Of a DNA stretch of 11,165 nucleotides, positions 2,716-10,709 are shown in pieces. Source of the DNA: an uncultured Nitrosomonadales bacterium (GTDB lineage: Bacteria; Pseudomonadota; Gammaproteobacteria; Burkholderiales; Gallionellaceae). Positions within the stretch are counted from its first letter, which is position 1, and the number at the start of each line of letters is the position of its first letter. A model generated the notes under the pieces. That model was given only the letters and a program-made list of their open reading frames with translations, was not told where the DNA came from and did not search any database. A program made the translations under genes and the position numbers. The stretch is taken from assembly GCA_903934275.1 (NCBI GenBank), contig CAIZNF010000182.1, positions 1-11,165 of the forward strand, written 5' to 3'.

Positions 2716-3909
2716 TCAGTTTTTTGCGTAACGCAACGCCAAATCTTTTAGCGCGGCAGGTCTACCATAATGCCAGCCTTGTCCGAAGTCGCACTTCAAT
2801 TCCATAAGCTTGCCGCCAACGTCTTCGGTTTCGATCCCTTCCGCAACCACATTCATGCCGAGTGAATGCGCAAGCTTGATAGAGGATTGCACGATTTGCA
2901 AACTCTGCGCCGATTCGAGCATCGGCGCAATAAACGCACGGTCAAGTTTAAGTGTTTTGATCGGGTAGCGCTGCAAGTGATCCAGCCCGGAGTGACCCGT
3001 ACCATAATCATCCAGCGCGATGCTGCTACCCAATTCAATCAGCCTGTTCAGAATACGCAATGCAATTTCAGGGTGCTCGACCATGACTGTTTCAGTGAGC
3101 TCCAGCTTCAGTTCCGTTGTCGGCATATTGTGGCGCGCGATGATCACCCGCATATCATCCACCACGGATTCACAGATTAATTGGCTCGGCGACAGGTTGA
3201 CGCTGACAAAGGGGGACCCATAGCGGGTATATTGCCTTAGTATCGGCCAGTCTCGGCAGGCGCGTTCAAGCGTCCATAATCCGAGATCGCGTATCAGGCC
3301 GGTTTGTTCGGCAAGCCAGAGAAAGTCCATCGGCGGGATCACGCCCTCCGTAGGATGATGCCAGCGGATCAGCGCCTCGAATCCGGCAATGTGGCCATCG
3401 GCCAAATTGCAGATCGGCTGATAGTAAAGCTGAAACTCTTCGTGCGTTAACGCGCGCGAGATTCCGTGGGCAAGCGACAGTTTTTGCGTTGCCTCGCCCT
3501 TCAGCGCACTGCGACGATCGGATTGCTCCTGTTCGGCATCCGTGCTTATTGCAGACTTGACAGTATTTCCCTGTTTGCCACGGAAGCGCTCCAGAATAAC
3601 CAGTAGCAGATGACGCAAAATCGGGTCGCTTTTTTCCAGCAGATTCTCCACCAATTTTCGCCTGACAGGGATGAGAACCGTTTTCTCGGTAGCCCTGACT
3701 GTCGCGGTGCGGGGCTGTTGGTCAATCAGCGCGATCTCGCCGAACATCTCATCCTTGCCCATCGAACTGACGCACTGCTCCACACCCTGGATAACTGCAA
3801 AAATTTCGACAGTGCCCCTCTCGATAAGATAGGCACAATCACCGGTGTCGCCAATCTTGAATATCTGTTCTCCGGCGGCAAAAACTTCGCGATCCAATTC
3901 GTCAAACAT
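2716..3909 (-). CDS. cyclic-nucleotide-binding domain / EAL fusion, predicted c-di-GMP phosphodiesterase
   Basis: Predicted cytoplasmic enzyme that hydrolyses cyclic di-GMP under control of a bound cyclic nucleotide. Residues 8-110 are a CAP/Crp-type cNMP-binding domain. Its phosphate-binding cassette is intact (FGEIALIDQQPRTATV, residues 56-71), with the Glu58 and Arg67 expected to hold the ribose phosphate. A linker (112-143) leads to an EAL domain (about 144-397). Its metal and catalytic residues look complete: FEALIRW (Glu178), NLSPSQL, LELTET, DDYGTGHSGL, LKLDR, VVAEGIET and GQGWHYGRP. There is no GGDEF domain. The frame is open to an ATG at 3948, but the ATG at 3909 has a strong GGGAGG seven bases upstream and starts at the domain, giving 397 aa. 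A cNMP-EAL precedent is Bdellovibrio Bd1971, a cAMP-sensing phosphodiesterase. It lies 174 bp downstream of corC on the same strand, probably separately transcribed. Confidence 0.92.
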   Translation of the reverse strand: MFDELDREVFAAGEQIFKIGDTGDCAYLIERGTVEIFAVIQGVEQCVSSMGKDEMFGEIALIDQQPRTATVRATEKTVLIPVRRKLVENLLEKSDPILRHLLLVILERFRGKQGNTVKSAISTDAEQEQSDRRSALKGEATQKLSLAHGISRALTHEEFQLYYQPICNLADGHIAGFEALIRWHHPTEGVIPPMDFLWLAEQTGLIRDLGLWTLERACRDWPILRQYTRYGSPFVSVNLSPSQLICESVVDDMRVIIARHNMPTTELKLELTETVMVEHPEIALRILNRLIELGSSIALDDYGTGHSGLDHLQRYPIKTLKLDRAFIAPMLESAQSLQIVQSSIKLAHSLGMNVVAEGIETEDVGGKLMELKCDFGQGWHYGRPAALKDLALRYAKN

Positions 3910-3915
3910 ATAAAT

Positions 3916-3921
3916 CCTCCC
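3916..3921 (-). promoter_or_regulatory. ribosome binding site deciding the EAL gene start
   Basis: On the minus strand GGGAGG sits seven bases before the ATG at 3909. The upstream in-frame ATGs at 3948 and 3939 have no comparable site, so translation very likely starts at 3909. Confidence 0.75.
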
Positions 3922-3985
3922 AATCAGGATTGAACCCATAGTGTCCATCAGCCCAAAACCACGTTATTCATGCCCTTCGACAAAT

Positions 3986-7242: not shown

Positions 7243-7341
7243 ATGGCGATTATCGCTGACGTGGTATCAATTAGTGCCGCAGTGTTTGCAGTCTTGTTTA
7301 GCTTGTGGACATTGAAGCAGTTGTTCACAGGCGACAAGTAA
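7243..7341 (+). CDS. 32-residue single-pass membrane peptide, unknown function
   Basis: A short frame, ATG to TAA, encoding a hydrophobic peptide that begins MAIIADVV and ends LKQLFTGDK. Residues 7-24 (from VVSISAAV through FSLWTL) form one likely membrane helix. The lysines at 25 and 32 follow the helix, so the positive-inside rule predicts a cytoplasmic C-terminus. There is no signal-peptidase site. Evidence that it is a gene: a strong Shine-Dalgarno at correct spacing, a clean stop, and a tight hairpin terminator 14 bases after the stop, all inside a gap with no other gene. I do not recognise the family. It is not like CydX, KdpF or CcoQ on the residues visible. Possible roles are a small subunit of a membrane complex or a membrane-active peptide; neither is shown by the sequence. 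Its neighbours are miaB (divergent) and the cyclase gene (convergent). Confidence 0.72.
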   Translation: MAIIADVVSISAAVFAVLFSLWTLKQLFTGDK

Positions 7342-7354
7342 AATAATAGCAACT

Positions 7355-7382
7355 AAAAAAACCAGCTTCGGCTGGTTTTTTT
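7355..7382 (+). terminator. rho-independent terminator, probably bidirectional
   Basis: Stem ACCAGC / GCTGGT with a TTCG tetraloop (7361-7376), flanked by six A before and six T after. It ends the small peptide transcript. Because the A and T tracts are symmetric it can also stop transcription arriving from the convergent cyclase gene, which ends at 7448. Confidence 0.92.
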
Positions 7383-7447
7383 ATTGAGGGTTGAATTAGT
7401 TGGCTTGCATTTCTGATTCTTCAAATTAGGCTGACCGCCGGTGTGTT

Positions 7448-8821
7448 TCAAACGCATCCGCAATCGCTCAGGAAACGACCAAGATGGCGATCATCGCGGG
7501 ATACATGATTTAGCAACCAGTTGGACAAGGACAAATTGATGCGGAAACCAAGATACAGGGACTTTTCGATGTTGGCCTCGATTTCTTCTCTCAGTTTGTG
7601 GAAGTATTTTTTGTAAGAATTATGCTGAGCGATGTGGTCCGAAGAGAAAAGGTAGTTATGTTTTATCATTAACTCATCTTCAAACTCAAAATGTTCCCGA
7701 ATACGTTTTTCCAGAATATCCATTGCGGATGTTATGGCATTCTGGCTATTTTCAACAGTCACGGCTTCGTGGAGCTTCTGGATAAGGTCCAATAACTCCT
7801 GGAGTTGGCGGTCAATTTCTTCGATGCCGACCTCATGTTTTTTGCGCCAGATCATTTCATCCGCAAGCTCTTCAGTACCGATAAAGATTCCAGTCTTGAT
7901 GTAATCCCCGCAACGTTTTAAATAAACTTTTGCGGGATTATCGCCGGGGTTTTCCAGTACTATTTCTTCCAGCATGGGGAGCGCCTTTGCGGCCGCACGT
8001 AGATGATAATAGGCGAGAGCCTCCTCAAATTTCTTCAAGGACTTTGCCTTTAGCCCCCTTATCTCCGGTGCATCGTGGTCAAATACCTCGTAGACCGATT
8101 CCGCCGGGGTGTTTTCAGCCACTTTCGATCGCCCGAGGTAACGTATCGAAAACCGCTCAGAATCGGAAAGGCTGTAAAGCGTGTGTTCGCTGATCAGCAA
8201 GGGTACCCCGTAAGTCTTGGTCAGGGTTTCCAAGCGTGATGCCAGATTGACTGCGTGGCTGATCACCGTGCCCTCCATCCGGTTGCCGCCACCTATCACA
8301 CCGAGCATCAACAAGCCGGTATTCACGCCGATCCCAATCTTTATCGGAGGGTAGGCGGCTCTTGACCGGCCATTATTGTATTCATCGAGGCGCGCCAGCA
8401 TTGCCAGTGCGGCAGAAAGCGCATCATCGGCCAATGTGGGGAACAGCGCCATGATCGCATCCCCCATGTACTTGTCGATGATCCCCTGATGGGTGCTGAT
8501 GACAGGATTCATTACCGACAGGTAAGAGTTGATCATGTTGAAGGTTTGTTGCGGGGTCATGCTTTCCGACAAGGTGGTGAAGTCGCGTATGTCAGTGAAC
8601 ACGATCGACATCGTTTTTTCGACCTGGTCGCCGAGTTCGACATCCAGCAGACTTCCCTTACCCAAAAAAGAAATCAGGTCACGCGGGACGAATTGCAACA
8701 CGGTATGTTCGAGCAACTTTAATCTGGCCCGTGTTCCCGCATGAGCTTCGCGCTCGGCTTCCAGTTCTGCAACGACGTTTGCAGGGTTGATCCTGGGGAG
8801 GGGGTTAAAGGTGGAACTCAT
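7448..8821 (-). CDS. class III adenylate cyclase with C-terminal hemerythrin domain
   Basis: Predicted soluble enzyme making cAMP from ATP, with an attached iron-site sensor. A short coiled segment (16-43) precedes the cyclase domain (about 68-245). Metal-binding Asp77 (FTDIRDFT) and Asp121 (DKYMGDAIMALF), base-selecting Lys117 and Thr185, and transition-state Asn192 and Arg196 (VNLASR) are all present; the Lys/Thr pair is the class IIIb adenylate-cyclase type. A helical TPR-like linker follows (258-310). The hemerythrin domain (about 325-455) keeps His377 and Glu381, His396 and His400, and His439 and Asp444. The first ligand His of the IDxQH motif is Leu340 (IDRQLQ). The frame starts at an ATG at 8887, but GGAG six bases before the ATG at 8821 favours that start (457 aa). 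It is the last gene of the HDOD-MBL cluster, 131 bp after the MBL gene. Guanylate cyclase activity is less likely. Confidence 0.9.
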   Translation of the reverse strand: MSSTFNPLPRINPANVVAELEAEREAHAGTRARLKLLEHTVLQFVPRDLISFLGKGSLLDVELGDQVEKTMSIVFTDIRDFTTLSESMTPQQTFNMINSYLSVMNPVISTHQGIIDKYMGDAIMALFPTLADDALSAALAMLARLDEYNNGRSRAAYPPIKIGIGVNTGLLMLGVIGGGNRMEGTVISHAVNLASRLETLTKTYGVPLLISEHTLYSLSDSERFSIRYLGRSKVAENTPAESVYEVFDHDAPEIRGLKAKSLKKFEEALAYYHLRAAAKALPMLEEIVLENPGDNPAKVYLKRCGDYIKTGIFIGTEELADEMIWRKKHEVGIEEIDRQLQELLDLIQKLHEAVTVENSQNAITSAMDILEKRIREHFEFEDELMIKHNYLFSSDHIAQHNSYKKYFHKLREEIEANIEKSLYLGFRINLSLSNWLLNHVSRDDRHLGRFLSDCGCV

Positions 8822-8827
8822 AATTTG

Positions 8828-8831
8828 CTCC
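8828..8831 (-). promoter_or_regulatory. ribosome binding site favouring the cyclase start at 8821
   Basis: On the minus strand GGAG is followed by six bases and then the ATG at 8821. The upstream ATGs at 8887 and 8833 lack an equally placed site, and the residues they would add (rich in Lys) do not look like a conserved domain. Confidence 0.6.
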
Positions 8832-8952
8832 ATGCGTGAAACGGTGAGAGCGTTTTTTATAGTTTTGATTTTGCAGGGTTTTGGCATCTTCAGCGAACCG
8901 CCCTGCGCTCAATGTTGACATCACGCCGACAAACATTGTCAATGCCAGCACA

Positions 8953-9840
8953 TTACAACTCGATCTCTATGCCCTCGCGTGCCAACCGGAAATCCGTCAT
9001 TCCTTCGCGTCGCGGATGCCGCTCCAGCGCCTTGGCGAATTCGCGCTCCAGCGCGTCATCGTCGCGTGTCGGTTCATGGTGGGTGCAGAAAAGAATTTTT
9101 GCGCCAACCGCATCGGCCATGTTCATGCAGGAATCGAACGTGCCATGCCCCCAGCCTTTTTTGCTGGGATATTCCTCGATGGTGTATGAGGAATCGGCAA
9201 TCAACACATCCACGCCTTGCATCACGTCGAAAACCATCCGTTCCTGCGCTTCGACCAGTCCGCGATATTCTTCATAGCTATCGTCTTCCGGCGAGTAGAT
9301 ATTGGAATAGGGTTCGTGGTCTCCGGTGAAAAATAGCGACTTGCCATTGCATTCCACCCGGTAACCAAAATTGACGACAGGGTGATTCAACAGGGTTGCC
9401 GTCACCGTGGCCGAACCCACTGTGACTGTCTGCCCAGGTGCCAACGAAACGTACTCGATACTCGCCTTCATTTCGGCTTCGCGTACCGGAAAGTAGCTAT
9501 ATTGCAGCTGCACATCCATGACTTGCTCTACCCCGCGCCCAGAAACCGGATCAAGTGCACCGTGCAGCTTCATCTTGTTACCGGGAATGAAGTTGGGAAT
9601 AAAGAAGGGTAGGCCCTGGATGTGATCCCAGTGGCTGTGGGTTATAAATATGTTGGCGGTGACCGGCAGCTCTTTCAAAAGGGACTGCGACAGCGGGAAA
9701 ATTCCGGTGCCCCCGTCGAGAATAATCAGCTCATTGTTGTCCGTGCGAATTTCGATACAGGTAGTGTTGCCGCCATATCGCACCGTGCCAGCGCGTGGTG
9801 ATGGGATCGAGCCGCGCACACCCCAGAATTTTATTTTCAT
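8953..9840 (-). CDS. metallo-beta-lactamase-fold hydrolase (PhnP/RNase Z-like class)
   Basis: Predicted cytoplasmic two-metal hydrolase, probably a phosphodiesterase. It opens with MKIKFWGVRGSIPSP, typical of the PhnP/RNase Z-like branch. The metal-binding motif THSHWDH spans residues 67-73 (His68, His70, Asp72, His73). Further expected ligands are His153 (LNHP), Asp174 (TGDHEP) and the His254/His255 pair (CTHHEP). Asp216 (IADSSYT) and His232 (GHGTFD) are also family-like. There is no signal peptide, so a secreted beta-lactamase role is unlikely. The length is 295 aa. The start codon overlaps the HDOD stop by four bases (ATGA), which shows translational coupling. Its place between the HDOD gene and the cyclase makes cyclic-nucleotide turnover a reasonable guess, since some proteins of this fold are cAMP phosphodiesterases. 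Nothing in the sequence proves the substrate. Confidence 0.9.
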   Translation of the reverse strand: MKIKFWGVRGSIPSPRAGTVRYGGNTTCIEIRTDNNELIILDGGTGIFPLSQSLLKELPVTANIFITHSHWDHIQGLPFFIPNFIPGNKMKLHGALDPVSGRGVEQVMDVQLQYSYFPVREAEMKASIEYVSLAPGQTVTVGSATVTATLLNHPVVNFGYRVECNGKSLFFTGDHEPYSNIYSPEDDSYEEYRGLVEAQERMVFDVMQGVDVLIADSSYTIEEYPSKKGWGHGTFDSCMNMADAVGAKILFCTHHEPTRDDDALEREFAKALERHPRREGMTDFRLAREGIEIEL

Positions 9841-10709
9841 GATGCATCCATTTGGGAAAATTGTTTGGCATGTTCGAGAACTCTCGCCAGCTCGTCGTCG
9901 CCGATAGAGGCAATCAATGTTTCCAGATTGACGTTAATGCCGAAATGCTTGGCAACTGAGGGGGGTAAGTCCTCTGAACGTGAATCTCCGGCGAAGCCAA
10001 ATCCCATTTTTTTGCTGATCTGGTTGGCGGCATAGACACAAGACCCCATTACTGAATCGCTAGCTTTTTCCGAGTGGTGGTTGCGGATGCTATCGATTAA
10101 CAGTTCTGGAAACTCCCATTTTTCGGCCAACATTGAGCCGACTACGGTATGGTCTGTTCCAATAGCGGCATGCTCCGCCGAGAACAGCGATATATCGCCG
10201 GTCTTGCTTTTTTCGAGCGCCACTTTGAACTGTTCCGGCATGAATTGGGCGAATACTACCTTGCCAAAGTCATGCAACAGCCCGGCAACGTAACAATCCA
10301 TCGGGTCGGCACCGCCTATCTTTCCGGCCAAATGTTTGGCAATAGCGGCGGTTGACAGGGAATGCAGCAGGTACTGGCCGACATCGAAGCCGGCAGCATT
10401 TTTCTTGGGCATGATACCGATTGCGGCAATGCTCAACGCAATGTTTTTGACGGTATTCAGGCCGAGAAACACCACCGAGTGGTTGATCGAGGTGATCTTG
10501 CTGGGCAATCTGTAATAGGCCGAATTGAGAACCCGCAGAATCTTCATCGTGATGACTGGATCGTTTTCGATGACCTGCACCAGAAGCTTCGGTGAGCAGT
10601 TGAGATCACGCGTCAACTCAAGAATTTTTTGCACGCTTTTCGGGAAGGCAGGCATTCGCTCCACGGCTTCGCCAAGCTTTTTGCTCAATTCCTCGGAAAT
10701 CTCGCTCAT
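9837..10709 (-). CDS. HDOD-domain signalling protein
   Basis: Single-domain HDOD protein of 290 aa, a degenerate relative of HD-GYP phosphodiesterases used as a regulatory or scaffold module in bacterial signalling. The HDOD core covers about residues 15-215 (PAFPKSVQKIL, NSAYYRLPSKITSINHSVVFLG, GLLHDFGK, NHHSEKA). Unusually many HD-type metal residues survive: His116, His146-Asp147, His180, His187 and His211-His212. Some metal binding is therefore possible, but there is no GYP motif. The ATG at 10709 is preceded by CAGGAG (10719-10724 on the other strand) at nine-base spacing. It is the first gene of the cluster and overlaps the MBL gene by four bases. A near-perfect -10 box lies about 80 bp upstream. 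Confidence 0.92.
   Translation of the reverse strand: MSEISEELSKKLGEAVERMPAFPKSVQKILELTRDLNCSPKLLVQVIENDPVITMKILRVLNSAYYRLPSKITSINHSVVFLGLNTVKNIALSIAAIGIMPKKNAAGFDVGQYLLHSLSTAAIAKHLAGKIGGADPMDCYVAGLLHDFGKVVFAQFMPEQFKVALEKSKTGDISLFSAEHAAIGTDHTVVGSMLAEKWEFPELLIDSIRNHHSEKASDSVMGSCVYAANQISKKMGFGFAGDSRSEDLPPSVAKHFGINVNLETLIASIGDDELARVLEHAKQFSQMDAS

Follow-up and report, generated by a model that had tools for sequence, protein, structure and literature searches.

Two known proteins have a hemerythrin domain fused to an enzyme of nucleotide second messengers, Bhr-DGC of Vibrio cholerae and Bhr-HD-GYP of the iron oxidiser Ferrovum. According to the available excerpts of the reports, the reduced iron form of each is the more active or the sole active form, and Bhr-HD-GYP forms no O2 adduct (PMC9388753, PMC8846402). 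Here we describe a locus on contig CAIZNF010000182.1 from an uncultured bacterium of the Gallionellaceae; the window, that is, the whole stretch of DNA analysed, is one complete contig of 11165 bases in a genome fragmented into 722 contigs. It encodes a class III cyclase that, like these two proteins, joins a hemerythrin fold to a second-messenger enzyme. In Bhr-DGC and Bhr-HD-GYP, cyclic di-GMP (c-di-GMP) is made or broken by a C-terminal enzyme domain, whereas in the window protein the cyclase is N-terminal and the hemerythrin domain C-terminal, and the latter is one iron ligand short, unlike theirs. We read the locus as a cyclic AMP (cAMP) cluster in which the cyclase would be regulated by an altered hemerythrin domain, with a metallo-beta-lactamase-fold (MBL) hydrolase as phosphodiesterase and an HDOD protein as partner, at a probability of roughly one half.

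The 2008 census of hemerythrin partners gives, in its available part, methyl-accepting chemotaxis proteins (MCP), GGDEF, kinase, CheY, PAS and EAL, with about 20 unidentified (PMC2556348), and the corresponding portion of a 2013 iron-oxidiser paper gives PAS/PAC, GGDEF, histidine kinase and MCP (PMC3770913). No class III cyclase-hemerythrin fusion was met as described in the accessible sections of this literature; one architecture-figure legend names NMP cyclase and hemerythrin among its domains, and such a fusion may be drawn there (PMC1592074). Literature searches on HDOD with hemerythrin, and on HDOD with metallo-beta-lactamase, returned no paper.

The HDOD, MBL and cyclase genes lie in that order on the minus strand (Table 1), and the frames of the first two share four bases. 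The cyclase scores 65 bits with Pfam Guanylate_cyc and is, to judge from its residues, probably a cAMP-making enzyme. It presents the metal-binding Asp pair of class III adenylyl cyclases (D77 and D121), K117 and T185, which align with the specificity Lys and Thr of the adenylyl cyclase CyaB, and the Asn/Arg pair N192 and R196; we take these residues to act in metal binding, adenine specificity and the transition state, respectively. The family was aligned from the best 120 of 5495 public matches (1e-10), 113 of them spanning the hemerythrin region, and locus sequences were added to reach 136 rows, duplicates of the same protein included. The six catalytic columns hold the expected residue in 132 to 136 of the 136 rows, the exceptions being gaps plus one Y: Lys117 in 133 and Thr185 in 135, gaps making up the remainder, and Asn192 and Arg196 in all. 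CyaB of Pseudomonas aeruginosa (3r5g, 80.9 bits) shares the Lys/Thr, Asp and Asn/Arg residues, but its solved 198-residue chain has no hemerythrin domain; the full-length protein presumably carries other regulatory domains. A structural search with the whole cyclase model covered well only residues 318-455, and is uninformative on the cyclase part. Five further class III cyclase matches and 17 cyclic-nucleotide-binding-domain matches (some within one protein) occur in the genome, so cAMP signalling is well represented there. The cyclase start was placed at 8821, not 8887, because two distinct orthologues have a stop before the conserved start and because the start region is kept in three related loci (L037-L039), where the gap between MBL and cyclase is about 60 bp.

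Table 1. Coordinates of the HDOD, MBL and cyclase-hemerythrin genes and of the cyclase subregions in the window
Feature	Position	Strand	Remarks
HDOD-domain protein, 290 aa	9837..10709	-	Pfam HDOD 196 bits
MBL-fold hydrolase, 295 aa	8953..9840	-	Motif THSHWDH; candidate atypical class II-like phosphodiesterase
Class III adenylyl-type cyclase with C-terminal hemerythrin-like domain, 457 aa	7448..8821	-
Cyclase catalytic domain, aa 67-247	8081..8623	-	D77, K117, D121, T185, N192, R196
Helical linker, cyclase to hemerythrin domain, aa 248-329	7835..8080	-
Hemerythrin-like four-helix domain, aa 330-451	7469..7834	-	H377, E381, H396, H400, H439, D444 retained
Codon CTC, Leu340	7802..7804	-	Position of the helix-A Fe2-ligand histidine

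The HDOD domain scores 196 bits against a Pfam cut-off of 22.9, and in the alignment the protein retains H, HD, H and HH, residues known from HD-type sites. The MBL motif fits the [T/S]HXHXDH pattern given for atypical class II cyclic-nucleotide phosphodiesterases in the available part of PMC9293780, and H68, H70, D72 and H73 are invariant across 27 chosen aligned relatives. The protein is probably a phosphodiester-hydrolysing enzyme, with cAMP a candidate substrate because of the gene neighbourhood, and may degrade the cyclic nucleotide. Its structural matches are RNase Z (26.6), YhfI (25.6, a near tie) and yeast PDE1 (22.2); YhfI, which with Rv1339 and CpdA belongs to the atypical class II enzymes, is about 18% identical to it in the structural alignment. 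Unlike these three, the window MBL gene is paired with HDOD.

HDOD and MBL form a conserved pair, adjoining in 26 of 30 genomes that comprise the window, 11 relatives and 18 genomes fetched from an order-wide sample; four distant MBL relatives and 11 unfetched genus genomes with MBL were left out of this set. Among 60 relatives, 11 have MBL at an identity of at least 63%, each with HDOD adjoining, and a further four have the distant MBLs. The order-wide sample of 399 genomes contains MBL at 1e-90 in 22, window included, and the 18 newly fetched ones show HDOD next to it in 14 and none there in four. The fetched stretches of the four distant relatives (31-37% identity; G058, G041, G005 and G059) hold no HDOD and, by profile search, no class III cyclase. 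Class-wide, MBL occurs at 1e-60 in 6 of 368 other genomes, three with HDOD and three with long fused MBL frames (L099, 5467-6795, fused to a response-regulator receiver; L097, 2424-4238; L098, 5432-7264). HDOD is the usual partner of MBL, perhaps as scaffold or regulator.

Cyclases recur near this pair. Of the 30 MBL genomes, 9 carry a class III cyclase within the stretch fetched, and three architectures are found near the MBL or HDOD-MBL locus, in separate lineages: a cyclase with hemerythrin by the MBL locus (window, G017, G008 and G038); a cyclase next to HDOD (G001 and G010, the latter's protein, L081, with a C-terminal PilZ domain); and a long cyclase, judged by eye to be CHASE2-like, at a distance of between about 0.3 and 1.8 kb from an MBL gene that has no HDOD beside it (G752, G668 and G458). 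Chance would give about 0.7 in 30, for six cyclases per 3.3 Mb and 13-kb stretches, a figure that ignores relatedness and differing genome content. The contigs of G016 and G522 end just past MBL. In two genus genomes the class III cyclase (L081, 8457-9575; L082, 8048-9166) is just upstream of HDOD-MBL. G038 has, upstream of its HDOD-MBL-cyclase/hemerythrin genes, a Ser/Thr kinase (L066, 9507-10778) whose C-terminal domain is of the cyclic-nucleotide-binding type.

Among 76 genomes of the genus, 32 have the cyclase-hemerythrin gene, 21 have MBL and 12 have both; the two adjoin in five, window included (G000, G801, G017, G008 and G817), and outside the genus in G038, of another family. HDOD, MBL and cyclase stand in a row in L037-L040 and G038. 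The trio is intact despite different flanks, as the 13 kb of L040 have no MiaB, YbeY, CorC or EAL match and corC of G817 is on another contig. The cyclase-hemerythrin gene has another conserved home in the nearest outgroup, between SBP_bac_5 and GCV_T-type genes (L041-L044, L048, L049, L071 and L072), the latter of which we take to be YgfZ-like; neither gene is nearby in L037-L040. Given these differing homes and the conserved HDOD-MBL core, we take the trio for a lineage-specific assembly built upon that core.

Several points weigh against a cAMP cluster. The count of nine in 30 includes no correction for relatedness, and two of these genomes have a cyclase frame that begins about 1.8 kb away from MBL. 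Where a genus genome has both genes they adjoin in only 5 of 12 and are apart in 7, and all eight fetched outgroup orthologues (63-72% identity) have the neighbourhood just described. MBL reaches only 42.2 bits with the curated cyclic-nucleotide phosphodiesterase model NF041851, whose cut-off is 400, and scores higher with RNase Z, also below cut-off. The AF2 model is poor over the cyclase part (block means 30-83). On one rival reading, MBL and HDOD have no connection with the cyclase, serving for example RNA processing in an RNase Z-like manner, and their adjacency to it in the window's clade is incidental. We consider it rather unlikely, since three cyclase architectures occur near the locus in separate lineages, G038 adds the kinase with a cyclic-nucleotide-binding domain, and one relative of the MBL carries a fused response-regulator receiver.

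The C-terminal domain has an intact hemerythrin four-helix fold and keeps six of the seven iron ligands, including the two bridging carboxylates and the three histidines of Fe1. Of the two histidines of Fe2, the one in helix A is replaced by Leu340 in each of the ten rows that make up the window's clade (IDRQL in the window protein, against IDTQH in DcrH-Hr, whose output is an MCP and not a cyclase); we therefore class the domain as hemerythrin-like and not as a canonical diiron hemerythrin. The codon is CAC or CAT in 11 compared orthologues outside the clade, and a sequencing error is ruled out because the change is common to ten clade rows. Fe2 is the O2-binding iron and is held by two histidines, according to the available text of PMC9388753. 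The site is thus probably weakened by Leu340 or left with a single iron, and canonical O2 binding is probably lost with the ligand.

The first-pass annotation had proposed an oxygen-responsive cAMP module, a reading that is supported in part. Its three same-strand genes with a four-base overlap, its core catalytic residues (all six, adenylyl type by the CyaB alignment) and its C-terminal four-helix domain were all confirmed; 'oxygen-responsive' is not supported for the window protein because of the replaced Fe2 histidine, and the incomplete sensor site was absent from that annotation. As for the conservation of gene order that it asked about, MBL and cyclase adjoin in the five genus genomes, window included, and in G038; they lie apart in the seven other genus genomes with both genes, the eight outgroup orthologues have other neighbours, and the order is not a general one.

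A second rival keeps a canonical O2 or redox sensor: two irons would still be bound despite Leu340, the gap being taken up by water or a different residue, and redox state would gate the cyclase. The intact fold and six retained ligands favour it, as do the sister sequences L040 and P0006, which keep helix-A His and all seven ligands (grouping 89), and the microaerophilic iron-oxidising life of named relatives (PMC3770913, in the part available). We regard it as unlikely: Fe2 is short of one His in all ten rows, and the domain has gained no fixed, clade-specific His, Cys, Asp or Glu that might serve as a new ligand. The clade-fixed changes found in less than 10% of the 129 other rows are L340, V356, E383, S421, S431 and N434, E383 and S431 being also in both sister sequences and S421 in one. 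Residue 434 (7520-7522), beside the helix-D Trp, has changed from D/E to N throughout the Leu340 clade, a state that occurs in 0 of 129 other rows; this change is possibly coupled to the loss of the helix-A ligand.

All seven ligands are present in 106 of the 136 rows, and helix-A Leu is the sole change in 10. A tree of 128 rows was quickly built and has some long branches; 15 of 143 rows (no hemerythrin part, fragments, duplicates) were dropped. In it 102 rows keep all seven ligands, at least one is missing in 26, and the labels need 10 changes. The seven Leu rows are a single clade (SH-aLRT 100). Helix-B His is lost outside the window's clade in L019/L020/L023, L021, P0055, P0046/P0053, P0105/P0119 and P0059, Fe1 His is Gln in one six-row clade, and a bridging E or D is lost in a few rows; losses are therefore not limited to Fe2. 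H400, H439 and a non-canonical extra histidine, His446, are invariant in all 136 rows. No relaxed selection was seen: the ratio of nonsynonymous to synonymous substitution (dN/dS, pairwise NG86, dS often saturated) for the domain is 0.04-0.15 in six Leu-clade pairs and 0.09-0.43 in 7 of 8 pairs outside it, one being not computable. Purifying selection and the invariant histidines imply that the domain is kept for some function. They also make improbable the last rival, in which the domain is a metal-free or vestigial structural or protein-protein module and the signal comes in by another route, such as HDOD or the N-terminal helix, although the recurrent ligand losses, helix-B His among them, would suit it.

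In the cAMP cluster that we favour, the domain would act as the regulatory part of a cAMP-making cyclase. In the wider family it most likely senses redox or O2 via a diiron site, by analogy with the hemerythrin fusions to DGC and HD-GYP; within the window's clade it would still regulate the cyclase, probably without canonical O2 binding. That the domain has turned, in this clade, from a diiron sensor of O2 or redox state into a single-iron sensor of Fe(II) availability, one that sets the rate at which cAMP is made while HDOD and MBL shape the resulting signal, is a speculative and quite improbable extension.

Family members were sought across the class, and 31 of 369 genomes, window included, match the profile at 1e-60; usually four candidates per genome were scored, and misses are possible. 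None of the other matches listed is a full-length cyclase-hemerythrin fusion, all ending by profile position 340 (cyclase part only). Named contigs of close cyclase relatives (13 loci) come mostly from Gallionella, Gallionellales and unplaced Proteobacteria metagenome genomes, and one from a Deltaproteobacterium.

Elsewhere in the window, a protein with cyclic-nucleotide-binding (cNMP) and EAL domains (2716-3948, minus strand) has Bd1971 as best solved relative (residues 27-400, 232 bits). Bd1971 hydrolyses c-di-GMP only with cAMP or cGMP, as stated in the available part of PMC8846402, and by analogy the window protein is a possible cAMP effector in a cAMP-to-c-di-GMP relay. As a linked partner of the cyclase this gene was rejected: it is corC-adjacent in 27 of 32 genus genomes having it (hand count of coordinates), with the cyclase near in only 3 of the 27 (G000, G017 and G801). 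A 32-aa hydrophobic peptide frame (7243-7341, plus strand; MAIIADVV...LFTGDK) is conserved in position in L037 and L038/L008, and a terminator-like hairpin lies beyond its end (7354-7383). An integrase-like frame lies near the contig end (189-1682, minus strand; DUF6538 50.1 bits, Phage_integrase below cut-off). Scans of the window found 4 promoters versus 4.3 in shuffled sequence and 1 terminator versus 4.7.

The organisms concerned are related to microaerophilic iron oxidisers, for which O2 and Fe(II) are the key variables, and a sensor of Fe(II) availability, if true, would report on the cell's own energy substrate by way of a cyclic nucleotide. Seven-ligand and six-ligand sites among close orthologues make a natural series on the role of the second iron. 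The hemerythrin sensors characterised in the literature excerpts available have chemotaxis, c-di-GMP or metal transport as their outputs, and a large family of fusions with class III adenylyl-type cyclases would add cAMP to that range.
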